This document shows positions 4,288-25,435 of a stretch of DNA of 39,504 nucleotides, one piece after another. The stretch's first letter is position 1. The number at the start of each line of letters is the position of its first letter. A program made the translations under genes and the position numbers. This DNA comes from Gammaproteobacteria bacterium. GTDB taxonomy: Bacteria > Pseudomonadota > Gammaproteobacteria > Steroidobacterales > Steroidobacteraceae. Under the pieces are notes generated by a model. The model was not told where the DNA came from. It saw nothing but the letters and a program-made list of their open reading frames with translations, and made no database searches. The stretch is from positions 1 through 39,504 of the forward strand of contig JAATEY010000116.1 in assembly GCA_015655465.1 (NCBI GenBank), read 5' to 3'.

Positions 4288-5436
4288 CTAGAACCAGAAC
4301 GAAACGAAGAACTGGATGATGCTGGCGTCGAGCGAATACAGCGGCTCGGTGCCCGGGTTGGGGGCGGACTGCGGGTAGTTGGTCAGGTCGCGGAACTTCG
4401 AATAGTCCACCATCATGCGGGTGAAATGCAGGTTCGCCGTGCCTTTCTTCAGCCAGGAGGCCCAGGCCACCGGGAACTGGTAGGACGCGCCCAGCCCAAG
4501 CGTGTGGCTGTGCAGGGCCGATGTTTCCTTGTCGCGTGCCATGAAGTTCTGCGCATCGACATAGGGAAACAGGTCGCTGAAGAAAACCGCGCTGTTCTGC
4601 GTGTAGAAGCGGTAGGAGCCCGACAGCACCCAGCGACCGCCGCGCAGCGGGTGGGTGTATTCAACGCCGGCAGTGTGGGCGTAGATGCCCCAGGTGTCGG
4701 TGTAGAAGCGATACTGGCTTTCGAGCGCGGCGCGCCAGGGCAGGTAGTACTTCAGGCGCGCCGAAACGGCGTTGCCGGTGCGGGTACCCGGAAACTTTTC
4801 CGACTTCCGGATATAGCCGCCCAGCGGGTTCACATAGCGCATGAAGCGATAGGGGTTCTGCAGATAGCCCTGTTCCGCCACTGTTTCGAAATTCAGCGAC
4901 AGCAGCATGTTGCGCGTGAGTACCTGCGTCACACCCAGCCTGTAGTCGCGGCGCTTGACCTGCTCCGCGAAGCCCGGGTCCACCGCGCTGCCGACCTTGT
5001 CGAGGCCCTGCGAGTAGCCGAAGCTCACCGTGGTCAGGTCGCCGAACATGTCCTGGCTGACGCCCAGCGACCAGGTGCTGGCCTTGTAGTCGTTTTCGGC
5101 GCTGTTGACGTAGCTCAGGGAGTAGGTCGACTTGCCGCGCAGGTAGTCCAGCGACAGGCTCTTCTGCTCGCGCCGCTCGCGGTACTCGCTGGCACCGGAC
5201 ACCACCACGTCGATGGACGCGCTGGTGATGTTGTCCACGTAATAGTTGGCAGTGGCCGAGAACGACTCGCCGAAGCCCTTGCGCACCAGTACGGATGGTC
5301 CATCCACGGTGATGCCGCCGCCGGAATAGCGGTGATACATGATGTCGGCGCGATCTTCGGGCAGCACGCCGGCATGGGCCGCGGCGGCAGCCAGCAGCAG
5401 TGCCGCCAGAGCCGGAAGTCGCGGGCAACGCAGCAT
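4288..5436 (-). CDS. DUF3570 outer-membrane beta-barrel protein
   Basis: The product is 382 residues from ATG 5436. The track start at 5451 is an upstream TTG. That ATG overlaps the TGA of the upstream DUF4266 gene as TGATG, a classic re-initiation arrangement that decides the start. A signal peptide (LPALAALLLAAAAAHA) precedes VLPEDRADIMYHRYSGGGITVDGPS, a recognisable DUF3570 opening. The remainder is a series of amphipathic strands that ends in an aromatic FFVSFWF strand with terminal Phe, as expected for an outer-membrane barrel. DUF3570 genes commonly travel with DUF4266, a thioredoxin and a flavin transferase (ApbE). The first two are here; ApbE is not in the window. Function is unknown. 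Confidence 0.88.
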   Translation of the reverse strand: MLRCPRLPALAALLLAAAAAHAGVLPEDRADIMYHRYSGGGITVDGPSVLVRKGFGESFSATANYYVDNITSASIDVVVSGASEYRERREQKSLSLDYLRGKSTYSLSYVNSAENDYKASTWSLGVSQDMFGDLTTVSFGYSQGLDKVGSAVDPGFAEQVKRRDYRLGVTQVLTRNMLLSLNFETVAEQGYLQNPYRFMRYVNPLGGYIRKSEKFPGTRTGNAVSARLKYYLPWRAALESQYRFYTDTWGIYAHTAGVEYTHPLRGGRWVLSGSYRFYTQNSAVFFSDLFPYVDAQNFMARDKETSALHSHTLGLGASYQFPVAWASWLKKGTANLHFTRMMVDYSKFRDLTNYPQSAPNPGTEPLYSLDASIIQFFVSFWF

Positions 5437-5663
5437 CAGGAGCAGCCGCAACCGCCGCCGCCGGCCCCGGTTGCACCCTTGGCGCCTTCGCGGACTTCGA
5501 AGACGTGATCCATGTATGACGACGACACCGGATCAGGATCGATCGCCATGATGGGATCGGCGAGGTGTTCGCGCTCGTAGGGTTTGACCCAGGGCTCAAG
5601 CGGCGCGCAGGCCGAGGCCGCCAGCAGGGCGCCCAGGCCTATGAACATCAACCGCTTGCGCAT
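5436..5663 (-). CDS. DUF4266 small lipoprotein with Gly/Cys C-terminal tail
   Basis: The 75-residue product has an n-region MRKRLM and a lipobox around AASAC at residue 18, so it is a predicted lipoprotein. It then shows the DUF4266 signature WVKPYEREHLADPIM and a segment ending DHVFEVREGAKG. The last eight residues are GGGGCGCS. A glycine-rich tail with two cysteines at the very C-terminus resembles a metal-ligating or post-translationally modified tail. That reading is inference. The ATG has a GGAAG ribosome site close upstream. It sits 8 bases after the thioredoxin gene and is coupled to DUF3570 by TGATG. Confidence 0.85.
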   Translation of the reverse strand: MRKRLMFIGLGALLAASACAPLEPWVKPYEREHLADPIMAIDPDPVSSSYMDHVFEVREGAKGATGAGGGGCGCS

Positions 5664-5671
5664 CGATCTTC

Positions 5672-6166
5672 CTATTCGCGCACCAGGGCGCGGATCTGGT
5701 TCAGGTACTCGTTCTCGTCGCCGTCCTTGTAGCCGCGATGCAGCCAGCGCAGGTTGCCCTTGCGGTCGATGATGACCGTGCTGGGCATGCCGGCAACCGC
5801 ATACAGCTTACTGACTTCGCTCTTCGTGTCGAACAGTATCGGAAAGGTGACAGGTGTGCTCTTCAGCCAGTTGGCGGCCAGGCTGGAATCCGGCTCCACG
5901 TTCACGCCGATCATGGTGAAGCCCATCGGCTTGTACTTGGTGTGCAGCTTCTCGAGGATGGGCATCTCGGTGCGGCAGGGGCCGCACCAGCTGGCCCAGA
6001 AGTTGATCATGACCACCTGGCCCTTGTACTGGTCGAGGCTGACCGGCTTGCCGGCCATGCTGTCGAGCTTGAACTGTGGGGCGGGGCCGGCGGGCGCCAC
6101 GGCGAGCGCAGGCGCAGCCAGCAGTGCCGCCAGCAGCAATGTACGCAGGGAGTGCATCTTGTTCAT
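5672..6166 (-). CDS. TlpA/ResA-like periplasmic thioredoxin (CGPC)
   Basis: The chosen ATG 6166 (MNKMHSLRTLLL) is preceded by GGAGC; the track's 6172 start is a TTG. The 164-residue product has a signal peptide and then an AhpC/TlpA-type thioredoxin fold. It shows APQFKLDSMAGKPVSLDQYKGQVVMINFWASWCGPCRTEMPIL with redox cysteines in WCGPC, and a cis-Pro region at GMPSTVIID. It is expected to reduce disulfides or apocytochrome/lipoprotein cysteines in the periplasm. The adjacent DUF4266 tail with CGC is an obvious candidate substrate, as is heme ligation of the nearby cytochromes; both are inference. It lies in the middle of the six-gene leftward operon. Confidence 0.9.
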   Translation of the reverse strand: MNKMHSLRTLLLAALLAAPALAVAPAGPAPQFKLDSMAGKPVSLDQYKGQVVMINFWASWCGPCRTEMPILEKLHTKYKPMGFTMIGVNVEPDSSLAANWLKSTPVTFPILFDTKSEVSKLYAVAGMPSTVIIDRKGNLRWLHRGYKDGDENEYLNQIRALVRE

Positions 6167-6186
6167 AACCAACCAGCTCCTGGAAA

Positions 6187-6894
6187 TCAGAAGAAAGCGG
6201 TCGCTCCGATGAACGCGCCGATGTTGTTGGTGAGCTTGTCCACACCGAGCAGATCCGACTGGAAAACGTGATCCTGCACGTCGATATGAATCGCCAGCCA
6301 GTCTGTCGGCAACACCCGGTAGCCGGCGCCGAAGTTCACGGTGAAACGCTGGTCACCGGCAAACTTCGCGCTGCCGATACCACCCAACAGGTACAGCGCG
6401 CTGTTCATGGCGAGATTGCGACCGATATACACCTCGCCAGGCAGCAAGTTGTAGCCCAGGGACAGGCTGTAATACGTGAAGCGTCTCTCACTGGGAGTAA
6501 GCAGCTGCACGTTGCCTCCCAGGGTCTCGAAACTGGTACGCCCGGCCTTCGACCGGCCGAACTGGGCTTCGAAGAACAGGTCTTCTGTCACATGGAAGGC
6601 GGCGCGGATGCCGGTCACGGGGTTGGTGCCGAAGTCCTCGATCGACAGGGCGCCGTAGTAACCGCCGAGCTCGACGTTTTCCGTATCGATCCTGTTGACC
6701 TTGATCTTGCGCCGCTCGACCTCGGGTTCGATGACCTTCGGCGGTGCCGCGCTGGTGGTTGCCTCGTCTTCCGCCACGGGCTCCTCTGCGGCCGCGCGGT
6801 CACGGTCGCGCGACCAGGGCCAGTGCAGCGAGGCGCAGCCGGTCAGCGGCAGCAGCAGCGCCGTCAGAAGAAGAATGCGAGCCCGAGTTTCCAT
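6187..6894 (-). CDS. Outer-membrane beta-barrel lipoprotein
   Basis: The 235-residue product begins METRARILLLTALLLPLTGCASL, with lipobox LTGC (Cys20), then a charged linker (RDRDRAAAEEPVAEDE). From about residue 65 there is an eight-strand-like barrel with RIDTENVELGGYYGALSIEDFG and a terminal IGAFIGATAFF. It resembles the 'outer membrane beta-barrel domain' family that occurs in Myxococcales and a subset of proteobacteria, often in pairs. Here its pair is the next gene upstream, which also ends in a Phe-rich strand. The ATG has GAGGAG at good spacing, and the gene overlaps its upstream neighbour by 31 bases, which implies translational coupling. Specific function is unknown. Confidence 0.8.
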   Translation of the reverse strand: METRARILLLTALLLPLTGCASLHWPWSRDRDRAAAEEPVAEDEATTSAAPPKVIEPEVERRKIKVNRIDTENVELGGYYGALSIEDFGTNPVTGIRAAFHVTEDLFFEAQFGRSKAGRTSFETLGGNVQLLTPSERRFTYYSLSLGYNLLPGEVYIGRNLAMNSALYLLGGIGSAKFAGDQRFTVNFGAGYRVLPTDWLAIHIDVQDHVFQSDLLGVDKLTNNIGAFIGATAFF

Positions 6895-7667
6895 TCGTTG
6901 ATCTCCTCATTCTCGTTGCGCGTGGTGAACACCATGTGGTGCCGATACTCGGCGCGCACGAAGAATCGTCTGGTCACGTAAAAGCGCAGGCCGGCACCCG
7001 CATAAGCGGTCTGGTCATTGCGGTCGCCGGGCAGCACCAGGGTTGATTTCGGTTGAATCCAGATCATGCCGCTGCCCAGCGTCAGCAGCGGCGACAGGCG
7101 CCAGTCCGGGCGATATACGTGCACCAGGCCCACTTCAGCCGTATAGCCGTTCGAAGCGTTGCCGAGAAACTGGGAGCCGGTGAATTCAACCGCCAGCTGC
7201 TCGTTGAACGAGCGCGACAGGAAACCCGACACCAGCGTGGCGCCACCGTAGTCGCCGGCCATGAAGCCCAGTTCCCAGCGGTGCGAAGTGAAGCCGGTGC
7301 GATTGCCCAGGTCGAAGCTGAAGGCCGAGCCGTCGGCGAGCAGCGTCTTCAGCATGTCGCGCTGGTGTGCCCAGCCTTCGATACCGCGCTTTGTGCGCAC
7401 GCGGAACCACTCGGTGCGGCGATACAGCACGTCGATGGCATCGCCCCGCGGCACCACCTGCGTGACCGCATAGCCGCGACCGGGGCCCTCATGCAGTTCG
7501 AGATAGGCCTCCGCGACGAACAGCTGCTGCAGCTTGTCCTGCCGGTCGGCAGCCGCGCTCGCACCAGAGAACAGCGTCGCCAGTGTCAGCAGTGCCGCGT
7601 GGAGCAGCGGCCTAATTGAGGAATCCGGCCGGCAGGCCAATCGGATTGTTGTAGTACTGCGCGCCAA
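6864..7667 (-). CDS. SH3-domain plus outer-membrane beta-barrel protein
   Basis: The product (up to 267 residues) has a signal peptide (LLHAALLTLATLFSGASA). It is followed by a bacterial SH3 module, AEAYLELHEGPGRGYAVTQVVPRGDAIDVLYRRTEWFRVRTKRG.EGWAH (about 50-105), normally a peptidoglycan- or peptide-binding fold. From about residue 120 it is a beta-barrel ending EINEWKLGLAFFF. The two domains suggest an outer-membrane protein tied to the cell wall. The 7667 start is a TTG overlapping the HzsA-related gene by 56 bases. A second TTG about 27 bases later is equally possible. No ATG precedes the signal peptide, so the start is uncertain. The 3' end overlaps the next barrel gene by 31 bases. Confidence 0.78.
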   Translation of the reverse strand: MARSTTTIRLACRPDSSIRPLLHAALLTLATLFSGASAAADRQDKLQQLFVAEAYLELHEGPGRGYAVTQVVPRGDAIDVLYRRTEWFRVRTKRGIEGWAHQRDMLKTLLADGSAFSFDLGNRTGFTSHRWELGFMAGDYGGATLVSGFLSRSFNEQLAVEFTGSQFLGNASNGYTAEVGLVHVYRPDWRLSPLLTLGSGMIWIQPKSTLVLPGDRNDQTAYAGAGLRFYVTRRFFVRAEYRHHMVFTTRNENEEINEWKLGLAFFF

Positions 7668-10278
7668 TGTCGACCCATTCGGAAATCAGACGCAGCTCGG
7701 CTGACGTCAGGAAGGGCCTATGATCAACCCCGCTGCCTGCAACCGCAAATTTGTTGAAGAATCGTGTGGACCCGAGCGCATTTGTGGGTACGAGTGAGCG
7801 CTGGACCGGCACCGGCACCATCGTCGGCAGTCCCGTATCCGGGTCATTCGGACCGGGCACAAGTCTAACCTGCAAGGCTCCACCGACAACCTCCCGTTCA
7901 ACATCATTGAACAGCAATTCGCGGTAGGCCGTCATGTGCAACTGTTGCTCAGCCGATGGTGTGCCGGAAAGATCCAGATGTCCGGCGGGTTCACGTGCCG
8001 CGCCCATGGCGTCGGCCGGCGTGTGGCAGTTGATGCAGGTGTTGGCGCCACGATCCAGCGACCAAAGCGGGTGGATGTGCTGCTCGTAGTTGACGATGGT
8101 GCGGCAGGTGCTGCTCCAGGTGCCCATGCAGCTGGTGCGTACCGGTGGCGGTGTGTTGAAGCCGCCGGCCGTGCCATAGGTGTAGCTGAGTGAATCATCC
8201 GCCGGACGATTCGCACCCGCGGGAGTGGGATCGGTCCACACGTCGTCATATAACAGGTTCACGCTGGGCTGTTGCGAGCACAAGCTGCCGCTGACACAGG
8301 TAGTGCGTGCGCGGGCCTGGGCCATCGTGTCGCCGATCTCGGCACCGGCGGCCGTGGCGGCAAGTGTGGCCGGAAAGCGCACACCGGAGGCGGCGGCACC
8401 TGACCAGGGCACCGGCATGTGCGCACCGTCCCGGCCGTGCGAGCGATCCATCGCGCCGCCGGTTGCATTCTGGTGGCAGCCATTGCAGCGACGGATCTCA
8501 CCGGGCCGGATCTGCAGCCAGCTGCGATGCGCCTGGAACAGGCGGCGGCCATTCTGGTCGAGCACCGAGATGACAAAGGCGACATCCGCCGGCACGCGCA
8601 CCGACACCGAACCATCCGGCTCGATGGGCGCGTAGCCCAGTATTTCACGCATGTATCCGACGCCACTGCCGACCGCGATGTTGAACTTGATATCGGGGAA
8701 GTTCAGGTCCTTGTCGCCGATCGACACCGCCTTTTCGATGCGCAGGAAGCGTGCCGGCCGCCGCGCGGCAGTGCGCAGCGACGGGTTGGCAATGGTCGCG
8801 ATGTCGGCGGTTCCCGGCCCGGCATTGAGTACCGCGCCGTCGAAGTCATAGACGCTGCGGATCTCCAGCAAGCCGACGCCTTCACCGATCAGCGCCGGGT
8901 CAAAGTCCGCGCCAGCCAGCGTGTGGTCGAGCCGCACAGCGGGTGGTATGCGCGGCTGGGCCGCCACCAGATCCGTGATCATCACGCCTTCGACCGGCTG
9001 GAACAGCGGCTTGAAGGTGTTGTCTGCCGGGTCGAATACGAACGCGCTGTACAGCGACGGCGCAGGCTGCGCGTTTGGATCTGCCAGCCGCTGTGGCGTG
9101 CACGGAACGATGGTGGCTGGCGTAACCGTGCTGTCCAGCAGGCGGCACTGCGACCAGCTGACCAGGATGCGGTTGCTGCCATCCCACAGCGGGAATGCAG
9201 AGCGGAAGCGGCCGCCCACGGAAGGTCCCGCGACAGTCGAGACCTGGTTCGGAGTGGCGCGCGTCTGCGCAGGCCCGGGCAGGCCGGCACTGGCCGCCAT
9301 CGGCTGCGTGTTCTCGACGTAGGTGCTGGTGTCGATCACCACCAGGTCGCCACCAAAGTCCGAGTCCCTGAAGGGGCGCACCAGCGTCAGCACGCGGCCG
9401 TTCTGCATCTCGCGCGGACGGGTGAACTGGATGGTGGTCGGGCCGTTGGCATCGGGCGTGCCGGTCTGGTGACTGCGCGCGCCGTAGAGCAGCTGCAGGT
9501 CGGTGCCATCGGGATTGGCGGTGTACAGGTGCATGCCACGGCCACCGTTGGCCCCGTCCCAGCGCGTGAACAGCACCCGTCCATCGGTCAGCACCGACGG
9601 CCACAGGTCATGGCTCTGGTTGAAGGTGATCTGATGAATGTTGCTGCCGTCGCCATCCATCACGTGCAGCACGAAGGCGCTCTCGCTGCGATTGTCGGTC
9701 TGCGCCTCGAATCCCGCCTTGCTTTCGTCCAGCAGTATGGCCTTCGACTGACGCTGGCGGGTGGAGGTAAACAGGATGCGACCGTCCGGCAGATACTGCG
9801 GACCGATGTCATTGCCCTCCGAGGCGATGGTGTTCGAAGGAATCACACGATGCAGGATGTCGGTGGGAATGTCGTATTCCCAGATCTGCCAGCTCGGCTG
9901 CTTTTCCTCATCCTGGTTGGCTCCCAGCGGGCCGCGCATCGCAAACACGATCTTGCGGCCATTGGCCGAGACATCGACATCCTTGATGTCGTAGCGGTCG
10001 CTGCCGGTGACGCGTTCGGTGATGTTGCGTTCGACGGAGGAGGGCGAAGCGCGGTCACGAAAGAAAAGATCTGCATCGGGAGCGGTATCGCGCTGCTGGC
10101 GCAGGTCGTCCGCATCCTCGGGAATGGTGCGCTTCACATAGGCGATCGGAAAGTCGACCGTGCCGGGATCGGCACCCTGGCCGTTGCCGATACTGACGCT
10201 GCCGCCGCCGCTGCAGCCGGCCAGCAGCACGAATGCTGCTGTGCCGGCGGCACGACACAACCCTGAGATCCTGTTCAC
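7612..10278 (-). CDS. HzsA-related di-heme c-type cytochrome lipoprotein
   Basis: The track ORF extends to 11187, but the upstream part is a shadow of the opposite gene. GTG 10278 (VNRISGLCRAAGTAAFVLLAGCSGG) gives 888 residues with lipobox LAGC and an AGGGA site upstream. The N-terminal half has WD40-like PD40 repeats (DGRILFTSTR, DGRVLFTRWDGANGG). The second half has the segment VGYMREILGYAPIEPDGSV typical of the middle domain of hydrazine-synthase alpha-like proteins. Heme sites are CNGCH (598-602) and CINCH (748-752). True HzsA belongs to the anammox HzsABC complex. HzsB/C partners are absent here, so hydrazine synthesis is not implied. It leads the leftward operon and is divergent from another heme gene cluster. 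Confidence 0.85.
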   Translation of the reverse strand: MNRISGLCRAAGTAAFVLLAGCSGGGSVSIGNGQGADPGTVDFPIAYVKRTIPEDADDLRQQRDTAPDADLFFRDRASPSSVERNITERVTGSDRYDIKDVDVSANGRKIVFAMRGPLGANQDEEKQPSWQIWEYDIPTDILHRVIPSNTIASEGNDIGPQYLPDGRILFTSTRQRQSKAILLDESKAGFEAQTDNRSESAFVLHVMDGDGSNIHQITFNQSHDLWPSVLTDGRVLFTRWDGANGGRGMHLYTANPDGTDLQLLYGARSHQTGTPDANGPTTIQFTRPREMQNGRVLTLVRPFRDSDFGGDLVVIDTSTYVENTQPMAASAGLPGPAQTRATPNQVSTVAGPSVGGRFRSAFPLWDGSNRILVSWSQCRLLDSTVTPATIVPCTPQRLADPNAQPAPSLYSAFVFDPADNTFKPLFQPVEGVMITDLVAAQPRIPPAVRLDHTLAGADFDPALIGEGVGLLEIRSVYDFDGAVLNAGPGTADIATIANPSLRTAARRPARFLRIEKAVSIGDKDLNFPDIKFNIAVGSGVGYMREILGYAPIEPDGSVSVRVPADVAFVISVLDQNGRRLFQAHRSWLQIRPGEIRRCNGCHQNATGGAMDRSHGRDGAHMPVPWSGAAASGVRFPATLAATAAGAEIGDTMAQARARTTCVSGSLCSQQPSVNLLYDDVWTDPTPAGANRPADDSLSYTYGTAGGFNTPPPVRTSCMGTWSSTCRTIVNYEQHIHPLWSLDRGANTCINCHTPADAMGAAREPAGHLDLSGTPSAEQQLHMTAYRELLFNDVEREVVGGALQVRLVPGPNDPDTGLPTMVPVPVQRSLVPTNALGSTRFFNKFAVAGSGVDHRPFLTSAELRLISEWVDIGAQYYNNPIGLPAGFLN

Positions 10279-10521
10279 AATTGGTTTCCCTGTGCCCGCG
10301 ATGCGGGCCCGTGTGAGGTAATTAGTGCCTGCAGGCTGCATATGGCTGTGACCGAGGTCCCACATTGCAGAGCAAATCATATCCTTGCGGCGCAAAACAG
10401 TGTGCTGTCTGTATGCGGCGACGTCTGTCGTTTGAGACATTACCGCAGGCTCCACAGGGCAGATACATTCGTCGCCCATGGAACAGGGCGCGGCATTCCG
10501 CGACAGGTAAGGACGGGTCTC
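10279..10521. promoter_or_regulatory. Divergent intergenic region between two heme-protein operons
   Basis: This 243-bp spacer must hold the promoters for the HzsA-related leftward operon and the long rightward operon. I see no convincing -35/-10 pair. It contains a 6-bp stem hairpin GCCCGC-GAT-GCGGGC (10294-10308) in the leftward leader, 16 bases from the GTG start. It also has a GCCTGCAGGC palindrome near 10330 and a short ACAG-TGTG-CTGT inverted repeat at 10397-10408. The shared spacer suggests co-regulation of both sides. AAGGA lies 8 bases before the rightward ATG. Confidence 0.4.
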
Positions 10522-11703
10522 ATGAAACGATTCCACAATGTTCAGAGTGTCATCGCCGCAGCGCTGGCTGTCACGCTGTCGGTGTGTGCTGCCACCGCTC
10601 TGGCCGGCCCGGTACAACGGGCGCAGGCCAAGCGCATCCATGACCGCATTGCGGGCGTGCCGCCGGACGCGGTGGTGCTGAATCAGATGGAAGCACTCAT
10701 TGTCGCGAATCCGACAACCGGTCCCGTCGCAGCTGCCCGCATTGCGATGCAGGCGCCGAGCTTCTACACCACTGTTCTCAAGAACTGGGTCACGCCATGG
10801 ACCAACCGCGACCAGACGGCGTTCGCGCCGCTGAACGACTACACGGCAACGGTCATCGGGATGGTCCGCGACGACATCGATTTCCGCCAGGTGCTGAGCG
10901 GTGACATCCTCTACACAGGGGGTCCGGGTCTGCCTGCGTATTCGCCAGCCAACAACAACCTCTATCAGCAGATGGAGGACGACGATGTCGATCTGGGCAA
11001 GGACACCGTGCTGGTGAAAGGAACCCAGTCCGCGTATACCGGCCTGCCGTCGGCCGCCACTGCCGGCGTGATCACCACCCGCGCGGCAGCCCAGGCGTTC
11101 TTCATCGCCGGCACCAATCGCGCAATGTTCCGATTCACGATGATCAACCACATGTGCAAGGACATGGAGCAGGTCCACGACGTGCACCTGCCCAATGATC
11201 GTATCCGGCAGGACGTGAGCCGCTCACCCGGTGGCGACAGCCGGCTGTTCCTCAACAACTGCATCGGCTGTCACAACGGCATGGATCCGCTGGCGCAGGC
11301 CTTCGCCTACTACAACTTCAATGAGACCACCGGCCGCATCGAATACACCGACGGTCAGGTGCAGCCGAAGTACCTCATCAACATGGACAACTTCAAGCCG
11401 GGCTACATCACCCGCAATGACGGCTGGAACAACTACTGGCGCCAGGGCGCCAACACGGTGCTGGGCTTCAGCAGCCAGTTGCCGGGCAGTGGCAGTGGCG
11501 CGAAGTCGATGGGCCAGGAACTGGCCAACAGCGACCAGTTCGCCCGCTGCCAGGTCGAGAAGGTGTTCAGGACCGTATGCCTGAGGCCGCCGGTCAACGA
11601 TGCCGACCGCACTGAAGTCAACCGCATCATTGGTGTGTTCCGCAACTGCGGTTACAAGGTCAAGGACGTGTTTGCCGAGACCGCCGCAGTCTGCAAGGGG
11701 TGA
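10522..11703 (+). CDS. Mono-heme periplasmic protein of the DUF1592/DUF1588-like type
   Basis: ATG 10522 has an AAGGA site 8 bases upstream; the track start at 10342 lies in the promoter region. The 393-residue product has a signal peptide (VIAAALAVTLSVCAATALA). Its one heme-c site, CIGCH at 247-251, is followed by NGMDPLAQAFAYYNFNETTG. That sequence resembles the CxxCH..mDPlg.af..fd..G pattern of DUF1588 in planctomycete-type cytochrome proteins. The preceding RAAAQAFFIAGTNRAMFRF region looks like the DUF1592 portion. It is probably exported and may work with the DUF1501-like protein two genes downstream, as such pairs do in Planctomycetes. The substrate is unknown. It is the first gene of the rightward operon. 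Confidence 0.78.
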   Translation: MKRFHNVQSVIAAALAVTLSVCAATALAGPVQRAQAKRIHDRIAGVPPDAVVLNQMEALIVANPTTGPVAAARIAMQAPSFYTTVLKNWVTPWTNRDQTAFAPLNDYTATVIGMVRDDIDFRQVLSGDILYTGGPGLPAYSPANNNLYQQMEDDDVDLGKDTVLVKGTQSAYTGLPSAATAGVITTRAAAQAFFIAGTNRAMFRFTMINHMCKDMEQVHDVHLPNDRIRQDVSRSPGGDSRLFLNNCIGCHNGMDPLAQAFAYYNFNETTGRIEYTDGQVQPKYLINMDNFKPGYITRNDGWNNYWRQGANTVLGFSSQLPGSGSGAKSMGQELANSDQFARCQVEKVFRTVCLRPPVNDADRTEVNRIIGVFRNCGYKVKDVFAETAAVCKG

Positions 11704-11713
11704 GTAGATAACC

Positions 11714-14158
11714 ATGAACACATTGCGCTACCTTTCCGTGGTCGTGTCTGTCGCCCTGCTGGCTGCCTGCAGCGGCGGTGCACCTACCACCAGCAACCCC
11801 AACACCGCTCCGCCCACGGTTTCCGCCTATTCGGGTCCGGCGCCGCAGAGCGCGGCCGTGCAGTCGTTCCGTGTCAGCTTCTGGGAAAACATCAAGGCCA
11901 ACAACCGTTGCGGTGGCTGCCACAACGCCACCGGCCAGTCGCCGCGGTTTGCTCGCAACGACGACATCAATCTCGCGTATGCGGATGGCACCAGCCTCGT
12001 GAACCTGACGGAGCCGGACCAGTCAAAGCTGGTGTTGAAAGTGGGCGGCGGCCACAACTGCTGGCTGTCGAGCAATTCGGCCTGCGCCGACATCCTCACC
12101 ACCTGGATTCGCAACTGGGCGGGTGCGGCCGCAGGTGGCGGTGGCACGCAGATCCCGCTGAAGGTACCGGTCGATGTATCGGTGGGTCAGAGCAAGACCT
12201 TCCCCGATTCGGCGGCGGGATTCCAGTCGACCATCTGGCAGCTGGTGCGCGACCCCGCGCGCGGCAACTGCCTGCGCTGCCATGCACCCACTGCAGCGAC
12301 CCCGCAGTCGCCGTTCTTTGCCAGCGCCGATGTCAACGAGGCCTACGCCGCAGCACGTGCCAAGATCGATCTCGACAATCCGGCGCGCTCGCGCCTGGTG
12401 GTGCGCCTGCGTGAGGAATCGCACAACTGCTGGACATCCAGCTGCACTGCCGACGCCACCGCGATGCAGAACCAGATCGAGGCATTCGCCAACGGCATCA
12501 GCCTGACGCCGGTCGACGCGAACCTGAAGATCAGCAAGGCGCTGACACTCTACGACGGCACGGTCGCGGCCGGTGGCAACCGCTACGAAGCGAATACCAT
12601 CGCCAAGTACGAGTTCAAGACCGGCACCGGCAGCACCATATTCGACACCAGTGGTGTCGAGCCGGCGCTGAACCTCGGCATGTCCGGTGACATCACCTGG
12701 ATGGGTGGCTGGGGCGTCAACATCAAGGCGGGCGGCAAGGCACAGGGCACTACCACCGGCAGCCGCAAGCTGGCAGATCGACTCAAGGCCACCGGCGAGT
12801 TCGCCATCGAGTTGTGGGCCGCACCGGCCAACGTCACCCAGGAAGACGCCTACATCCTCAGCTATTCCGGTGGCGTGATGTCGCGCAACGTGACGCTGGC
12901 GCAGCGTGCCTACCAGTACGAGGCGCTGACCCGTTCCAGCACCACCGGCGCCAATGGCGCGCCGGCACTGCTGACGCGCGATGCAGATCGCGACGCGCAG
13001 GCTTCGCTGCAGCATGTCGTGCTCAACTATGACCCGGTCAACGGGCGCCGGCTCTATGTGAACGGCAATTTCACCGGTGACCAGGATCCGCGCGCCGGCG
13101 GCGCGCTGGGCGACTGGGACGACACCTTCGCCCTGGTGCTCGGCAACGAAACCTCCAACAACCGGCAGTGGCAGGGCGTCATCCGCTTCGCCGCGATCCA
13201 CAGCCGCACGCTGACTCTCGAGCAGATCCAGCAGAACTTTGCTGCCGGTGTCGGTGAGCGCTATTTCCTGCTGTTCAACGTCACGGCCCTGACCGGCATG
13301 CCGCAGAGCTACGTCATGCTCGAGGCCAGCGAATACGACAGCTACGGCTACCTGTTCACCAAGCCGACGTTCATCAGTCTCGACCCGGCTGCGCGTCCTG
13401 GCTCGATTCCGGTCGAAGGTATCCGTATCGGCATCAACGGTTCCGAAGCGCCGGTGGGCCAGGCCTATGCCAATGTTGCGCTTGCCATCACCGACGCGAA
13501 CTACGCAACGGGCACCGGCCAGTTGCTGTCCGAGGTCGGCACGATCATCGGCCGGCAGAAGGGGCCGGCTGCCGACCAGTTCTTCCTCAGCTTCGACCGC
13601 ATCGGCACCAATACCTACGTGCGTACGCCCGTCACCGGCATCACGCAGGCCCCGGTCGACCTGCCCGCGAAGTCGGACATCGGTGTGCGCACCTTCGAAC
13701 AGCTCAACCAGAGCATGTCGCGCATCACGGGTGTGGCCACTACCAACAGCGGCGTGCGCAGCACCTACCTGCAGGTGCAGCAGCAGCTGCCGCCGGTGGC
13801 GAGCATCGAGGCCTTCCTGGCGTCGCATCAGACAGGCGTGGCGCAGCTGGCGATCAAGTACTGCTCGGTGATGGTGGACAATCCCGCGACGCGTTTGGCG
13901 TTCTTCCCGGCCCTGGATATCGCGACTGCGCCCGCGGTGCAGTTCGCCGATGCCAACGGCAAGGACATCCTCGCCACGCCGCTGCTGCAGAAGGTCGTGG
14001 GTGCGAACCTGGCAAGCCAGCCGTCCGACGCGGCCGTGCGCAATGAGCTGCATGCGCTGATCGGCAAGCTGGCCGCGAAACCCGGTGCCAGCAGCGCCAC
14101 AGTGGCCAAGGCAGCTTGCGCGGCGGCGCTGGGCAGCGGCGTGTTGTCGATCCTCTAA
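11714..14158 (+). CDS. Di-heme lipoprotein with duplicated heme module and LamG-like domain
   Basis: The 814-residue product is a lipoprotein (signal ending LLAACSGG). Two consecutive heme modules follow: CGGCH at 66-70 and CLRCH at 186-190. Each is trailed by a matching pattern (QSP.F, a D.N.AY segment, S.LV, then HNCW.SS), so one is a duplicate of the other. From about residue 270 to 500 there is a LamG/concanavalin-like fold (FAIELWAAPANVTQEDAYILSY; RRLYVNGNF). The C-terminal 300 residues are of unknown fold and have one more Cys pair. The protein is expected to sit at the outer membrane or periplasmic face and bind a ligand such as a glycan or polymer next to hemes. Ligand identity is not visible. 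The gap to the previous gene is 10 bases. Confidence 0.82.
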   Translation: MNTLRYLSVVVSVALLAACSGGAPTTSNPNTAPPTVSAYSGPAPQSAAVQSFRVSFWENIKANNRCGGCHNATGQSPRFARNDDINLAYADGTSLVNLTEPDQSKLVLKVGGGHNCWLSSNSACADILTTWIRNWAGAAAGGGGTQIPLKVPVDVSVGQSKTFPDSAAGFQSTIWQLVRDPARGNCLRCHAPTAATPQSPFFASADVNEAYAAARAKIDLDNPARSRLVVRLREESHNCWTSSCTADATAMQNQIEAFANGISLTPVDANLKISKALTLYDGTVAAGGNRYEANTIAKYEFKTGTGSTIFDTSGVEPALNLGMSGDITWMGGWGVNIKAGGKAQGTTTGSRKLADRLKATGEFAIELWAAPANVTQEDAYILSYSGGVMSRNVTLAQRAYQYEALTRSSTTGANGAPALLTRDADRDAQASLQHVVLNYDPVNGRRLYVNGNFTGDQDPRAGGALGDWDDTFALVLGNETSNNRQWQGVIRFAAIHSRTLTLEQIQQNFAAGVGERYFLLFNVTALTGMPQSYVMLEASEYDSYGYLFTKPTFISLDPAARPGSIPVEGIRIGINGSEAPVGQAYANVALAITDANYATGTGQLLSEVGTIIGRQKGPAADQFFLSFDRIGTNTYVRTPVTGITQAPVDLPAKSDIGVRTFEQLNQSMSRITGVATTNSGVRSTYLQVQQQLPPVASIEAFLASHQTGVAQLAIKYCSVMVDNPATRLAFFPALDIATAPAVQFADANGKDILATPLLQKVVGANLASQPSDAAVRNELHALIGKLAAKPGASSATVAKAACAAALGSGVLSIL

Positions 14159-15750: not shown

Positions 15751-15759
15751 ACGGAATCA

Positions 15760-15787
15760 TTGTCACGCGGCACCAGCGCGCTATCCT
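15760..15787 (+). promoter_or_regulatory. Possible sigma70 promoter before the TlpA-like gene
   Basis: TTGTCA (15760-15765) and TATCCT (15782-15787) are separated by 16 bases and would start transcription about 15-20 bases before the GTG chosen for the TlpA-like gene. This would allow internal expression of the downstream motor/TPR genes. The match is only partial. Confidence 0.25.
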
Positions 15788-15811
15788 TGGCGCATACTGT
15801 TAAATAGTCGC

Positions 15812-16339: not shown

Positions 16340-16359
16340 CGCAAGGCTCAAGGGGCATC

Positions 16360-16920
16360 ATGAAGCGTTCGTTCCATCAGGCATCCATACTGCTCGCGCT
16401 GCTTGCCGTCACGGGATTCGCCGCTGCGGCCGAAGTGCCCGCACCCGCCGCCGCACCCGCTGCTGCTCCCGACACCCGCGCGCTGGATGAAGAAATCCAG
16501 TCGATCAAGAAGGATGTGGTCGACCTGAACCGCGACCTGTTCGTGCTGGAGGAGGAACTGCTGTTCCCCGCCAACACCCAGGTGGCCGTGTTCCTGTCCA
16601 TGGATGTGGGTGATTTCTTCGCCCTCGATACCGTCGAACTGCGGGTCGACGACAAGCAGGTGGCGAAATACCTCTACACGCCGCGCGAAGCCGAAGCGCT
16701 GCTGAAGGGCGGCGTGCAGCGGCTGTATCTCGGCAATCTGCGCGTGGGCAATCACGAGCTGGTGGCGCTGTTCACCGGCAAGGGGCCAAACGGCCAGGAC
16801 TACTCGCGCGGCGCGCAGCTGAAGTTCGAGAAGTCCGTGGGCGCAAAGTATCTGGAACTGAAGATCGCGGACCGGCAGCGCAAGCGCCAGCCCGAGTTCG
16901 AAATCAAGGACTGGGAATAA
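16360..16920 (+). CDS. Uncharacterised secreted coiled-coil/beta protein of the motor cluster
   Basis: I do not recognise a named domain. The 186-residue product has a signal peptide (ILLALLAVTGFAAA) and an Ala/Pro-rich linker. A predicted coiled coil follows (ALDEEIQSIKKDVVDLNRDLFVLEEELL, about 48-70). The C-terminal beta-rich domain contains VAVFLSMDVGDFFALDTVELRVDDKQV and ends in a basic helix. The pattern 'ligand-binding Ig-like domain after a coiled coil' suits a periplasmic adaptor. It is 8 bases from the first TPR gene and 20 bases after the TlpA-like gene, so it belongs to the same transcription unit. I infer a structural role with the TPR and TolQR-type proteins. Confidence 0.65.
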   Translation: MKRSFHQASILLALLAVTGFAAAAEVPAPAAAPAAAPDTRALDEEIQSIKKDVVDLNRDLFVLEEELLFPANTQVAVFLSMDVGDFFALDTVELRVDDKQVAKYLYTPREAEALLKGGVQRLYLGNLRVGNHELVALFTGKGPNGQDYSRGAQLKFEKSVGAKYLELKIADRQRKRQPEFEIKDWE

Positions 16921-16927
16921 CGCGCGC

Positions 16928-21800: not shown

Positions 21801-22233
21801 GCGGCTGATGGAGGCCACGCCGGAATTCGGTGGTGCGGCCTACAACCTCGGTGTGTTGCTGTTCGGCCTGCAGCGGCTGGACGAGGCTGAAGCTGCCCTG
21901 CTCGAAGCCGCGCGCCGCGCGCCGCGCAGTGACGTGGCACTGACCGAACTCGGACTGGTGCAGCGGCAGCTCGGCAAGTTTGCCGCCGCCGCCGCTTCCT
22001 ACGAGAGGGCACTGCAGGCCAATCCGGAGCATGCTCCGGCATGGCGCAATCTCGGTGTCGTACGCGATATGTATCTTGGCGATCCCGCAGCCGCGGTGGA
22101 GCCATTCGAGCGTTACAAGGCGCTCACCGGTGAGGACCGGCCCATTACCAGCTGGATTGCAGATGTGAAGCAACGTGCCGGCAGGCGCGATGCCGCAATA
22201 TCCACGCCGGAAGCAAAGGCGGAGGTCCGATGA
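18829..22233 (+). CDS. Very large secreted TPR protein of the motor cluster
   Basis: At 1134 residues this is the largest gene of the cluster. A signal peptide (VWMAAAAVAISSAAFGAA) is followed by many TPR or half-TPR units throughout. Examples are NDQVLYQLARAYETTGQPDKALATLDDIV, LHFRRGELLFSAQKYRDAEAAYAEV, and close to the C-terminus AAYNLGVLLFGLQRLDEAEAALLEA and PAWRNLGVVRDMYLGDPAAAVEPFERYK. The repeats near the N-terminus resemble YbgF/CpoB-type units, which in E. coli couple the Tol system to cell-wall synthesis. No catalytic motif is seen. It overlaps both neighbours by 4 bases (ATGA junctions). It likely spans the periplasm as a scaffold for the ExbBD-type motor (inference). Confidence 0.8.
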   Translation: MKLRRTVWMAAAAVAISSAAFGAARSQPAPTLKDLPRRQVEIRKDAPTDNNAAKAMDNYRKFLELQKTDPALRAEALRRLGDLSLENGELERMETEVTRVDLGGAEAIRLYTLLLKAHPDYPRNDQVLYQLARAYETTGQPDKALATLDDIVRRYPASRDLAELHFRRGELLFSAQKYRDAEAAYAEVTRRGAGAFYQQGLYKQGWALFKQNLNEESLPVFARLLDVKLRDASAARGFRPLESLPRADREIVDDTLRVMSVTFSYAESIEPLNRFVDSIGKPPYAALLYARLGDLYVDKQRYQDGAAAYRAFVVREPDNEFSPGLSTQTIEAYRKGGFAQLVLQGKREYVENYNLGTSFWQGRDRANYPQVIAEIKAHLADLAAYHHAAAQKSRHADDFAQAARWYRLQLQSFPQDPESAQVNFRLADVLYEGGQFAAAVDEFERSAYAYPVGPDSAKAAYAALGAYQKQQPLLAEGERAAWKLRSIESGVKFAQAFPEHPDGSGVLARAAQDLYAAKNLPRAIEVAALVVNRNPAASTAQQRIAHGVVGQARFDQGEFQAAEQSWLRARELAADDPALQKSLTEQLSVAVYRQAEARRAAGDTAGAADDFLRVASVAPGTAAVETARYDAAAELIKARDWPRAIGVLEAFRRDYPKSRQQPDVTQKLAVAYMEGGRADAAAAEFERIADARDQAPALRLEALGIAADQYEKSGNDAKTIALLERLVAGFPAPVAERIETRQRLADFAARAGNNERVAYWQREIVKADASAAAARSDRTRYLAARASLALAAPARDSFRALKLGSPLQRSLAVKRRALETALAGYKAAAAYNIAEVTTQASFEIAELYGQLGADLIASERPKKQSAEVREQYDLMLEELATPIEEQAIALHEANVAHARDGIFDAGVKASYAALARLLPARYGKTELPGNYHDSLVLPVGMQPVAEAGAGGAGVAPRAAAPQPSGRLVAQHERALAQANAGQAADAELEFRRLMEATPEFGGAAYNLGVLLFGLQRLDEAEAALLEAARRAPRSDVALTELGLVQRQLGKFAAAAASYERALQANPEHAPAWRNLGVVRDMYLGDPAAAVEPFERYKALTGEDRPITSWIADVKQRAGRRDAAISTPEAKAEVR

Positions 22234-22679
22234 GGCATGCAATACTGAAATGGTCGCTGCTGATGCTGGTTGCGCCGGCATGGGCCATGGAGCCTGTTCC
22301 CGCCGCCACCGCGGCGCCAGCGCCTGCCGTTCCGCCAGCGTCGACCGTCAAACCTGCAGCAGCTGCACAGGCATCCCGTTCACTCGAACCCGCGGTGCGG
22401 ACAACACCGCCCGCAGTGGCAAAGCCGGCACAGGACCGGCTCGAACTTGACGCGACCCAGATCACGGGCAACCGTGAGTTGCCGCGGGTGCTCTACGTGG
22501 TTCCCTGGAAGCACCCTGATCTGGGGGATCTGTCCGGCAAGCCGGCCAACAGCCTGCTGGATGAAGTTCTGGCACCGGTGGATCGTGACGTCTTTCGGCG
22601 ACAGAACCGCTACTACCAGGCCCTGAAGCCGGACTCGGCCGGCGCGGGCAAGGCCACTGGCACAGAGGGTGAGAAATAG
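22230..22679 (+). CDS. Small secreted Ala/Pro-rich protein of the motor cluster
   Basis: The 149-residue product has a signal peptide (ILKWSLLMLVAPAWA) and then a 45-residue Ala/Pro/Thr linker. A conserved-looking C-terminal block follows: RELPRVLYVVPWKHPDLGDLSGKP, then VDRDVFRRQNRYYQAL. I do not know the family. The compact block after a flexible linker suggests a docking peptide or short domain presented in the periplasm. Its start overlaps the stop of the giant TPR gene (ATGA), so it is co-translated. A 70-base gap follows before the ExbB-type gene, the largest gap between the coiled-coil gene and the end of the cluster. Confidence 0.68.
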   Translation: MRHAILKWSLLMLVAPAWAMEPVPAATAAPAPAVPPASTVKPAAAAQASRSLEPAVRTTPPAVAKPAQDRLELDATQITGNRELPRVLYVVPWKHPDLGDLSGKPANSLLDEVLAPVDRDVFRRQNRYYQALKPDSAGAGKATGTEGEK

Positions 22680-22749
22680 GTCGCAGCAATTTCGCTGCAT
22701 AGGTTTCAAGGTGCGCAGGAGTCTTGCGCACCAGCAAGGGAGTCTCCAG

Positions 22750-23406
22750 ATGGATGTCTTTTCGACGATTGCCCGCTTCTTCCAGAACGGTGGGCACTTC
22801 ATGTATCCAATCGCGGTGGTGCTGGTCATCGGCCTCGCGATTGCCCTTGAGCGCTATGTGTATCTGACGGTTACACGCAGCCGCAACCGCGCCACGTGGC
22901 AGCAGGTCGAGCCGCTGCTCGGGCAGGGCGATTTCCGCCAGGCGGCACAGGTCGCATCGCAGTCGGAATCCGCGGTGGGACAGATCCTCACCTACGGCCT
23001 GACGCGCATCCAGAACGCCAAGCGCCGTGACGACATCGAGAAGGCCATGGAAGAAAGCCTGATGGGTATCGTGCCGAAGCTTGAAAAGCGTACCCACTAC
23101 CTCGCGACTTTCGCGAACCTGGCAACCCTGCTGGGTCTGCTCGGCACCGTGATGGGCCTGATCAGCGCGTTCAGCGCCGTGGCCACGGTGAATCCGGCCG
23201 AAAAGGCGAACCTGCTGTCCGCCAGTATCTCGGTGGCGATGAACTGCACGGCCTTCGGTCTGATGACTGCAGTGCCGTTGCTGGTCATCCATGCCGTCAT
23301 CCAGACCAAGACCACCGAACTGATCGACAGCCTGGAGATGGCCTCGGTGAAGTTCCTGAACTCCATCGTGGAGCGCCGTACGGAAGCAGCCCAGGCCAGC
23401 GCCTGA
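22750..23406 (+). CDS. MotA/TolQ/ExbB-family proton channel protein
   Basis: The 218-residue product starts at ATG 22750, which has AAGGGAG 7 bases upstream; the track start lies earlier, in the leader. It shows the TolQ/ExbB layout. There is one N-terminal membrane helix (MYPIAVVLVIGLAIALERYVYL) and a cytoplasmic region with RIQNAKRRDDIEKAMEES. The two pore helices then follow, LATFANLATLLGLLGTVMGLISAFSAVA and SISVAMNCTAFGLMTAVPLLVIHAVIQ. The TLLGLLGTVMG motif and the conserved Thr in the last helix are family hallmarks. It works with ExbD-type stators to couple the proton motive force to a periplasm-spanning arm. The two following genes supply two ExbDs. It is not necessarily the TonB-dedicated ExbB. 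Confidence 0.93.
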   Translation: MDVFSTIARFFQNGGHFMYPIAVVLVIGLAIALERYVYLTVTRSRNRATWQQVEPLLGQGDFRQAAQVASQSESAVGQILTYGLTRIQNAKRRDDIEKAMEESLMGIVPKLEKRTHYLATFANLATLLGLLGTVMGLISAFSAVATVNPAEKANLLSASISVAMNCTAFGLMTAVPLLVIHAVIQTKTTELIDSLEMASVKFLNSIVERRTEAAQASA

Positions 23407-23447
23407 AGTACCGGTGCAAGTCCAGCCGACTGTAAGGATTCGTTCCG

Positions 23448-23978
23448 ATGCGTCGTAACTACGCCATGCGCAAGCTTGAGCGGCGGCACCGCAAACCCGC
23501 GGAGCTGCTGCTCGTGCCCATGATCGACATCTTCACGGTGCTGGTCACTTTCCTGCTGATGACGGCGGTGTTCTCGCGCACCGTGATCCTGGAGCTGAAA
23601 CTCCCCAGCCAGAGCGCGGATTCGGTTCCACTGCCACCCGGCCTGAGGCTGGAAGTGCTGCTGCGCCAGAACATGGTGCAGGTGGCCGACAGCAACTCGG
23701 GCCCGCTCAAGACTTTTCCGCGCAAGGACCGCAGTCAGCCCTACGACCTCGCAGGACTTGCCGCATTTCTCCAGGAGGTCAAGGCGAAGTATCCCGACAT
23801 GACCGACGCAACGCTGTTGCTGGAGAAGGATATTCCCTACGACTCGCTGGTGCAGGTGATGGATGCCATGCGCCTGGTCGAGCAGCGCCAGGGCACCCAG
23901 CTGGTGCAGGCCGAGCTGTTCCCCAATGTGTCCATTGGCGATGCGCCCGAGATCGATGCGCCGGGAGCAAGGCCATGA
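23448..23978 (+). CDS. ExbD/TolR-family biopolymer transport protein (first copy)
   Basis: The 176-residue product has a basic cytoplasmic N-terminus (RRNYAMRKLERRHRKPAE). A single membrane helix, LLLVPMIDIFTVLVTFLLMTAVF, carries the conserved Asp in PMID needed for proton coupling. A periplasmic domain (RLEVLLRQNMVQVADS, LLEKDIPYDSLVQVMDAMRLVEQRQ) ends the protein. It is longer than typical ExbD (about 140). The stop overlaps the second ExbD start as ATGA. Two dissimilar ExbD-type subunits with one TolQ-type subunit is an arrangement seen in Agl-type motors. AAGGA precedes the ATG. Confidence 0.92.
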   Translation: MRRNYAMRKLERRHRKPAELLLVPMIDIFTVLVTFLLMTAVFSRTVILELKLPSQSADSVPLPPGLRLEVLLRQNMVQVADSNSGPLKTFPRKDRSQPYDLAGLAAFLQEVKAKYPDMTDATLLLEKDIPYDSLVQVMDAMRLVEQRQGTQLVQAELFPNVSIGDAPEIDAPGARP

Positions 23979-24496
23979 TGTCCAGCCGCGCGCGTCGCAT
24001 GATGATGCACCACCTGCGCAACCGGAACGAATCCGAGCTGAACCTGATCCCGATGATCGACATCCTGTCGGTGCTGGTGTCGTTCCTGCTGGTTTATTCC
24101 ACCGAAGTCGAGGTGGTGCAGAACAGCAAGGGCATCGAGATTCCCGAATCGATCGTGACTGCCAAGCCGCGCGAGACGGTGGTGGTCATGCTGACGAAAG
24201 ACGAGCTGTTCGTGCAGGGCGAGCGCGTGGCATCCATCGCCGAAGTGCAGGCCATCGATGGGCTGATCATCGCGCCGCTGCGCGAAGCCCTGCTGCGCCC
24301 GCGCATCATCGGCAAGGCCATGGCCGAGCGCGAGCTGGCTGACCGCGAAGTGACCGTCATGGCCGACAAGACATTGCCTTACGAGGTTCTGAAAAAGGTG
24401 ATGAGCACCTGCACGGACGCCGATTTCGGCAAGATCTCGTTTGCCACCATGCAGAAGGACAAGGCGCTGGCTCCCGGCGCCTTCCAGCCGAAGTAA
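23975..24496 (+). CDS. ExbD/TolR-family biopolymer transport protein (second copy)
   Basis: The 173-residue product has an Arg/Met/His-rich N-terminus (SSRARRMMMHHLRNRNESELNLIP). The membrane helix IPMIDILSVLVSFLLVYSTEVE again carries the PMID aspartate. A periplasmic portion follows, with ESIVTAKPRETVVVMLTKDELFVQGERVASIAEV and VTVMADKTLPYEVLKKVMSTC, the usual TolR 'DK..py..v..vm' pattern. It differs from the first ExbD outside the helix, so the pair is not a recent duplication and probably forms a heterodimer. It is coupled to the previous gene by ATGA and is 12 bases from the TonB-like gene. Confidence 0.92.
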   Translation: MMSSRARRMMMHHLRNRNESELNLIPMIDILSVLVSFLLVYSTEVEVVQNSKGIEIPESIVTAKPRETVVVMLTKDELFVQGERVASIAEVQAIDGLIIAPLREALLRPRIIGKAMAERELADREVTVMADKTLPYEVLKKVMSTCTDADFGKISFATMQKDKALAPGAFQPK

Positions 24497-24508
24497 CGCG
24501 GAGCCATC

Positions 24509-25435
24509 GTGGTACTTGCACCTTATTACCGTAGCTACGATCTTCCCTGGGAGGGCGATCCGGACTCGGGCCGGCGCTTCCGTCGCCTGCTGGTCATCGG
24601 CCTCACGCTGTTCGTGGTGCTGGGCATTCTGGTGCCGGTGCTGCATCTGCCGCGGCCGAAGGAAGCCGCTGCAGAAGCAGTGCCGGAGCGCCTTGCCCGA
24701 TTGATGGTGGAGGAGAAGCCCCAACCGCCGCCTCCTCCTCCTCCCCCCCCGGCGCCAGCCGAGCGGCCAAAGCCCGAGAGCAAACCGGAGCCCAGGCCAG
24801 TACCCCAGCCGGTGGATCGCACCGCCGAGGCGCGCAAGCAGGCCGAGCAGTCGCTGAAACGGGTACGCGATGAACTGGAGGATCTGCGCCGCGATCTGAC
24901 CAGGGATCTGCCGAGCCAGACCCGCAATCTCACCGGCGCCGTCGGCGCCGAGAGCAAGGCGGAGCGTTCGCTCATTACATCGAAGGCCGGCGCGGGCAGT
25001 GCCGGCGTGCAATCGACCAACAGCAGCCGTGGCTTCGGTTCCGGCGCCGGTTCGCTGACCGGCCACTCCGCCACCTCGGTCAATTCGCGCGTGGCAGCCA
25101 TCGGTGCGGAGAACAAGGCCATCCGCACCGGCAGCAGTGGCAAGGCCGCCCGCGGCCAGGAGGAAATCGAGCTGGAGTTCGATCGCAACAAGGGCGCGAT
25201 CTATGCGCTGTACAGCCGCGCGCTGCGCGACCGGGCGGACCTGCAGGGCAAGATGGTGCTGGAATTCACCATCGCGCCTTCCGGAGAAGTTACCGCCTGC
25301 CGTGTAGTGTCCAGCGAACTCAATGACCCCGAGCTGGAGCGCAAGATCATTGCGCGTGTGCGCCTGATCCGCTTCACCGCGCGTGATGTGGAAAGCATCA
25401 CCACCACCAAGCCGATCGAGTTCTTCCCGGGCTGA
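24509..25435 (+). CDS. TonB-like AgmX/PglI C-terminal-domain protein
   Basis: The GTG start at 24509 gives 308 residues. A cytoplasmic N-terminus (LAPYYRSYDLPWEGDPDSGRRFRR) precedes one membrane helix (LLVIGLTLFVVLGILVPVL, about 28-47). A proline stretch (PPPPPPPPPAPAERPKPESKPEP) follows, like the rigid arm of TonB. Next come a charged coiled coil (KQAEQSLKRVRDELEDLRRDL) and a Gly/Ser/Asn-rich linker. The C-terminal 90 residues begin IELEFDRNKGAIYALYSRALRDRADLQGKMVLEFTIAPSGEV; they match the AgmX/PglI C-terminal domain, which has a TonB-like fold. It probably transmits ExbBD energy to the periplasmic or outer-membrane partners. It is the last gene of the cluster. Confidence 0.88.
   Translation: MVLAPYYRSYDLPWEGDPDSGRRFRRLLVIGLTLFVVLGILVPVLHLPRPKEAAAEAVPERLARLMVEEKPQPPPPPPPPPAPAERPKPESKPEPRPVPQPVDRTAEARKQAEQSLKRVRDELEDLRRDLTRDLPSQTRNLTGAVGAESKAERSLITSKAGAGSAGVQSTNSSRGFGSGAGSLTGHSATSVNSRVAAIGAENKAIRTGSSGKAARGQEEIELEFDRNKGAIYALYSRALRDRADLQGKMVLEFTIAPSGEVTACRVVSSELNDPELERKIIARVRLIRFTARDVESITTTKPIEFFPG

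Follow-up and report, generated by a model that had tools for sequence, protein, structure and literature searches.

Hundreds of gammaproteobacteria share a set of ~19 genes that joins a predicted flavin- and heme-bearing outer-membrane redox complex to a predicted proton-driven motor similar in type to that behind Myxococcus gliding, and one copy lies at positions 4288 to 25435 of contig JAATEY010000116.1. The window analyzed here is this entire 39.5-kb contig, which belongs to an incomplete genome of 3.68 Mb whose relatives are Gammaproteobacteria. Eighteen genes were read there, six leftward and twelve rightward, on either side of a 243-bp spacer (Table 1); the nine next to the spacer, from the DUF3570 gene through the DUF1501-like gene, constitute the redox half, and the motor genes follow on the right. 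This is no chance neighborhood, and the comparisons below indicate that the redox and motor genes very probably form one functional system. The sequence-only reading of this DNA had likewise proposed one undescribed energized envelope system, which is strongly supported by the co-occurrence of the halves, their relinkage in different layouts, and versions within a single directon. It had missed the flavinylation module (Meheust 2021; PMC8238504), the apbE gene, and the match to the Agl-Glt core complex (Luciano 2011; PMC3169522); these two papers and Wartel 2013 (PMC3858216) are cited here from excerpts of their text. In the open-license literature we found no paper joining that core complex to heme or flavin genes, or describing the combined system.

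Conservation and co-inheritance of the two halves

A scan of named gammaproteobacterial genomes with alignment A1 (Table 1) found at least 586 encoding stretches, and among the best 80 loci, which were inspected, the nine genes of the redox half stand in order in all 64 that are uncut by a contig end. Carriers include Marinobacter, Microbulbifer, Alteromonas, Paraglaciecola, Peristeroidobacter, Povalibacter, Kangiella, Sedimenticola, and Thiodiazotropha. Among relatives in the same taxonomic order as the window genome, the nine-gene divergent order is kept in 20 of 20 loci, with TlpA1 missing between the outer membrane protein (OMP) and DUF4266 genes in two. More distantly, in G144, G321, and G098, the PSD-LamG-DUF1501 trio is separated from the HzsA-to-DUF3570 group, and a sample of the phylum gave no matches outside the same class.

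Co-inheritance was followed with one marker for each half, the DUF1501-like protein for the redox genes and a 186-residue exported protein for the motor. Within the window genome and its relatives, all 32 genomes with the redox marker also have the motor marker (39 carry the latter overall), and both halves are jointly absent from several members of the window's genus and, in two further genera with two genomes apiece, from one of the two. A sample of 276 genomes across the class includes 39 with the redox marker, 60 with the motor marker, and 37 with both (Fisher p 1.2e-27, kinship being ignored); the two with the redox marker only are G060, a fragment at a contig end, and G089. All 26 named genomes that were tested also carry the motor marker, including 24 picked because their 10-kb flank showed no motor; in Marinobacter and Alteromonas the linked motor begins just past that flank.

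The halves are linked in more than one way. The window's arrangement, with the motor behind the DUF1501-like gene, is found in 35 of the 80 named loci. In a second layout, 186aa-TPR1-TPR2-149aa-ExbB-ExbD1-ExbD2-AgmX stands directly behind DUF3570; this occurs on the same contig in 13 named genomes (Marinobacter, Alteromonas, Paraglaciecola, and others) and also in G128, G321, and G090. A third is a single directon, apbE-HzsA-173aa-SH3OMP-OMP-TlpA1-DUF4266-DUF3570-motor, which G045 and G058 carry and G059 has in similar form, and its HzsA-related protein has three CXXCH motifs and 35% identity. In the fourth the motor is elsewhere, and apbE and/or a thioredoxin gene precedes it in most cases. 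Across the class sample, the markers are ≤25 kb apart in 20 of 36 genomes, and the motor may flank the redox genes on the one side or the other.

The redox half: flavinylation module and heme proteins

DUF3570, DUF4266 with a CXC tail, a thioredoxin-like protein, and ApbE form a recurring redox set, in which ApbE flavinylates DUF3570 and covalent flavin mononucleotide (FMN) has been shown for the Chlorobium luteolum DUF3570 protein (PMC8238504). Taken across relatives, the system shares all four gene types, the CXC tail, and flavinylation-like sites with these clusters, and the first three genes are adjacent in the window (PF12094, PF14086, and Redoxin). The system differs from the clusters as excerpted from that survey in having HzsA-related, LamG, PSD, and motor genes and in the frequent replacement of the motif glycine by serine or alanine; moreover, the window has no adjacent apbE, the copies in its own genome lying on separate contigs such as C386. 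The DUF3570 residues D73, A78, S79, D81, and S88 are invariant (66 of 66 rows), the acceptor serine is kept at both sites, and the second window site reads SGAS (published motif, [S/T]GA[S/T]); FMN attachment to these proteins is our proposal from the motifs. Homologues of the DUF4266 protein end in CGC plus one residue. Judged by gene neighborhoods, apbE is part of the predicted system in most relatives: it adjoins DUF3570 in five genomes (G005, G007, G031, G040, and G050), lies directly upstream of the motor in six (G037, G042, G044, G052, G056, and G057), and in Microbulbifer sits between the DUF1501-like and 186aa genes. The OMP barrel at 6187 to 6894 has a C-terminal phenylalanine in 84 of 84 homologues. 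None of the three barrels matches TonB-dependent receptor models (receptor or plug domains), and a TonB-dependent receptor system was rejected for this reason.

Each of the five CXXCH motifs found in the three heme proteins is conserved; that of the PSD2-like protein is invariant, as are both in the LamG protein across 21 sequences. A profile of the HzsA-related family finds hydrazine synthase HzsA in the PDB (5c2v_A, E 2.4e-16), and the middle domain and both heme regions align, together with the propeller; PDB searches with DUF1501-like, PSD-like, and LamG profiles returned nothing useful. The protein previously read as DUF1588-like matches PSD2/DUF1585 instead; the score of the window protein is below the cut-off, and 16 of 21 homologues match. 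The DUF1501-like protein, exported by twin-arginine translocation (Tat), matches no Pfam family, and the Pfam DUF1501 family matches none of 13 members tested; its model suggests, with modest confidence, an alkaline-phosphatase/sulfatase superfamily fold (VIA Z ~11 over 220 residues to ENPP/sulfatase chains, with a model pLDDT of 65); a Foldseek search with the same model was not significant (E above 0.02). The redox half resembles the planctomycete DUF1501/PSD heme proteins in its PSD2 (DUF1585) C terminus and in the predicted fold of the Tat protein, but differs from them in lacking a Pfam DUF1501 match and in its partners.

A variant of the HzsA-related protein with three CXXCH motifs is encoded at L182 (11709-14723), L183 (12415-15489), and L184 (3337-6348). 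In L182 and L183 a small CX4CH-containing lipoprotein comes next, in place of PSD-LamG-DUF1501.

The motor half

The gammaproteobacterial core complex consists of AglRQS-like genes, GltC/D/E/G-like genes, and one extra gene, and its function is unknown (PMC3169522). The Agl motor of Myxococcus xanthus is modular, and Agl-Glt and Agl-Nfs both carry out surface transport driven by the proton motive force, with Agl-Nfs moving spore-coat glycan (PMC3858216). The window's motor half resembles these systems in having one TolQ/ExbB protein, two ExbD proteins, a TonB-like protein with an AgmX/PglI C terminus, exported TPR proteins, and the extra gene. Unlike them, it is tied to a flavin/heme redox set, which the excerpted texts (PMC3169522 and PMC3858216) do not mention. 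In comparisons with family models, the Glt equivalog scores fall far below their cut-offs for GltG (37.5 bits; cut-off, 650) and GltJ (15.7 bits; cut-off, 450) as well as for GltE (Table 1); we therefore class the motor half as Glt-like rather than Glt. An anti-phage Zorya or other defense system was rejected, as the only match was a marginal one to ZorA (16.5 bits) and the combination of ZorA and ZorB with effectors was not found.

Only one of the two ExbD aspartates is conserved: Asp29 of ExbD2 is invariant (25 of 25), whereas Asp27 of ExbD1 is present in only 8 of 25 and is mostly Ser or Asn in relatives, and therefore one of the two stator proteins, judged by these alignments, probably carries no protons. 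A TonB-style transmembrane histidine is not conserved in the AgmX-type protein (2 of 16). The 186-residue protein is modeled as a helix and a transthyretin-like beta-sandwich, and its matches (VIA Z up to 9.8) reflect, as far as the model goes, a common beta-sandwich and are little informative.

In a tree of TPR1, linked and unlinked motors are mixed (the label changes 14 times among groups, against a mean of 26.6 after shuffling), and paralogous motors are set apart (100 of 100); the unlinked motors of redox-bearing genomes are therefore mostly of the same lineage. A paralogous 186aa-TPR-ExbBD-AgmX cluster without redox genes is found at L175 to L178 (in G046 and G051, and as second copies in G042 and G056), followed in at least G051 and G042 by a gene for a secreted protein of >1,400 residues. 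The position of these paralogues beside giant secreted proteins suggests that the same motor frame may serve several cargoes. In Marinobacter atlanticus, the ACP86_00815-00830 operon (PMC8233155) may encode either this motor or a paralogue of it, and was not used because Marinobacter genomes often have two copies of the motor marker.

What the system may do

We propose, tentatively and with somewhat less than even confidence, a proton-driven trans-envelope machine that ends in a covalent-flavin/multiheme redox complex, with the motor displaying, positioning, or moving the heme/LamG complex. The inner-membrane ExbB-ExbD1/ExbD2 motor would use the proton gradient through the ExbD2 aspartate and pull the AgmX-type protein, and the force would pass through a periplasmic scaffold of TPR1, TPR2, and the 186- and 149-residue proteins to the outer-membrane barrels. 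TlpA1 and TlpA2 would reduce the CXC tail of DUF4266, and electrons, whose path and direction we infer, would move on to ApbE-attached FMN on DUF3570 and from there reach the heme groups in the HzsA-related, PSD-like, and LamG proteins. The output would be a heme/LamG complex that is displayed at the surface, positioned, or moved, as the Agl motor moves Glt or Nfs cargo. What we observe is the gene content, the conserved cofactor motifs, the joint inheritance of the halves, and their recurrent linkage to each other and to apbE. The modular use of the Agl motor with different cargo provides a precedent (PMC3858216). A bolder form, which we consider plausible but hold with less assurance, is that the proton motive force controls surface electron transfer through a motor working a flavin/multiheme complex, and that this is the function of the orphan gammaproteobacterial Agl-Glt core complex.

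Several observations weigh against this model. The redox set is missing from 23 of the 60 class genomes with the motor marker, and a paralogous motor clade adjoins giant secreted proteins instead of redox genes; the motor is therefore not specific to redox cargo. Among the 24 named genomes selected for motor-free flanks, the motor was shown on the redox contig in only 13 and not in the other 11. The complete genome G089 keeps a shortened HzsA stretch and the PSD, LamG, and DUF1501-like genes, but the barrels, DUF3570, and the motor are gone, and its locus looks like a decaying copy. In this DUF3570 family, moreover, the glycine of the flavinylation motif is mostly replaced by Ser or Ala. Motors without redox genes, together with the halves being unlinked in part of the genomes, would suit two separate systems that similar organisms simply happen to inherit together, but we consider this improbable: the co-occurrence is nested, genera show losses of both halves at once, linkage takes three or more layouts (single directons among them), and apbE is tied to either half. 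The sequence-only reading had named separate halves in other genomes as evidence against its proposal. They do sit apart in some, yet the motor is still present, mostly next to apbE or to a gene for a thioredoxin, and therefore the neighborhood data do not refute the proposal.

If the halves do form one system, it could have tasks other than displaying or moving its hemes. In an energized uptake system, the TonB-like AgmX-type protein would open a barrel, the LamG and propeller lipoproteins would catch a metal or ligand, and reduction by the flavin and hemes would set it free. This would fit the TonB-like C terminus of the AgmX-type protein and the ferrous iron transporter found in some DUF3570 clusters (PMC8238504). 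TonB-ExbBD and Tol-Pal also pair a motor driven by the proton motive force with a TonB-like transducer. We nonetheless regard uptake as unlikely: the barrels are not recognizable receptors, the conserved set includes no inner-membrane transporter gene, and one ExbB with two ExbD types and a TPR scaffold is Agl-like rather than TonB-like, the set also being without a receptor plug domain, TolB, or Pal. An equally unlikely role is secretion or polymer export, with the motor exporting a protein or glycan that the thioredoxins and the putative alkaline-phosphatase superfamily enzyme fold or modify; the giant secreted proteins beside paralogous motors, the glycan moved by Agl-Nfs (PMC3858216), and the resemblance of the DUF1501-like model to enzymes including sulfatases and phosphoethanolamine transferases speak for it, but the conserved set has no gene for glycan synthesis or a secreted substrate, and five conserved CXXCH sites plus apbE suggest that the main job is electron transfer. 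Resemblance of the motor parts to Agl-Glt might indicate a gliding apparatus, which is very improbable given the low Glt equivalog scores and the report that the core complex alone is insufficient for gliding and that most carriers are not known to glide (PMC3169522). Least probable of all, to the point of being negligible, is a hydrazine synthase or other anammox-type enzyme. It would account for the HzsA homology and both heme sites, but the protein, a lipoprotein unlike HzsA, reaches only 55 of the 800 bits that the equivalog model requires. In addition, the position four residues after the first CXXCH, occupied in the 2015 hydrazine synthase structure by a heme-ligating tyrosine, is mostly Ser in the HzsA-related family (86 rows).

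Since its description in 2011, the Agl-Glt-like core complex that stands alone in gammaproteobacteria has lacked a known function, and the 2021 survey left the output of the DUF3570 flavin systems uncertain. A link between them would provide each with partners that can be tested in culturable genera (Marinobacter, Microbulbifer, Alteromonas, and Povalibacter, for example) and would hint at what the motor does outside Myxococcus. If the motor does work on the redox complex, this would be the first case, in the literature that we found, of proton-gradient mechanical force acting on outer-membrane electron carriers.

Gene organization and other features of the window

The six leftward and twelve rightward genes around the spacer are all present where the sequence-only reading had placed them (Table 1). 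Its account of the rightward genes also holds, with gaps of ≤70 bp and, for the several ATGA overlaps that it described, three found. The DUF4266 and DUF3570 genes overlap as TGATG, the DUF3570 ATG at 5436 overlapping the DUF4266 stop. Scans for promoters and terminators gave sites no more frequent than in shuffles. Small gaps also separate the genes beyond 25435 (KefB, a one-heme protein, PEPC, and CysI), so the right boundary was set by comparison and not by gap size; KefB, the one-heme protein, and PEPC are outside the conserved set.

Table 1. Genes of the redox-motor locus and the intervening spacer
Feature	Position	Strand	Evidence
DUF3570 protein, predicted outer-membrane barrel, two flavinylation-type sites (D73-x-x-[ST]-x-A-S79; A87-S88)	4288..5436	-	PF12094 E 1.6e-38
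DUF4266 small lipoprotein, C-terminal CGCS (CXC motif)	5436..5663	-	PF14086 E 2.1e-22
TlpA1, periplasmic thioredoxin-like, WCGPC active site	5672..6172	-	Redoxin/AhpC-TSA
Outer-membrane beta-barrel protein (OMP), lipobox and C-terminal Phe	6187..6894	-	TIGR04565 150.6 bits (cut-off 60)
SH3-domain protein with C-terminal outer-membrane barrel	6864..7604	-	SH3_3 E 5.5e-10; OMP_b-brl E 2e-5; TIGR04565 35.6 bits, below cut-off
HzsA-related two-heme beta-propeller lipoprotein	7612..10278	-	HZS_alpha E 3.1e-17; PD40
Spacer between directons, 243 bp	10279..10521		same divergent arrangement in 20 of 20 loci within the order
PSD2/DUF1585-like exported protein, one CXXCH	10522..11703	+	PSD2 E 7.7e-5
LamG-domain lipoprotein, two CXXCH	11714..14158	+	Laminin_G_3 E 8.4e-16
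Tat-exported DUF1501-like protein	14194..15750	+	alignment A1; alkaline-phosphatase/sulfatase superfamily fold in model
TlpA2, second thioredoxin-like protein	15812..16339	+	AhpC-TSA E 3.1e-24
186-aa exported protein, motor marker	16360..16920	+	61% mean column identity
TPR1, exported TPR protein, 634 aa	16928..18832	+	TPR models
TPR2, exported TPR protein, 1134 aa	18829..22233	+	TPR models; GltE model 33 bits (cut-off 225)
149-aa exported protein	22230..22679	+	no family; same position between TPR2 and ExbB in relatives
ExbB/TolQ-type proton channel subunit	22750..23406	+	MotA_ExbB E 4.4e-28, 98 bits
ExbD1 stator subunit	23448..23978	+	ExbD E 3e-17, 63 bits
ExbD2 stator subunit	23975..24496	+	ExbD E 3.2e-17, 63 bits
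TonB-like force transducer with AgmX/PglI C-terminal domain	24509..25435	+	NF033768 62 bits (cut-off 40); TonB_C E 3.9e-6

The one-heme protein behind KefB (27517-28881) lies in the same directon, is exported, has 454 residues and one CXXCH, is without a Pfam or NCBIfam match, and is not conserved with the system. At the far right, 38552-39340 encodes a protein with repeated N-terminal FGTLxxSxxSxPSxTGIDF-like units and no family match. To the left of the locus, the C-terminal part of a TonB-dependent receptor lies near the contig start (197-1159), followed by a leftward gene for a di-heme oxidoreductase (DHOR, a putative peroxidase; 1186-2520) and by a solute-binding protein gene (2998-3753) next to that of a putative ModE-like regulator (3781-4269), the regulator being judged by the look of its sequence only.

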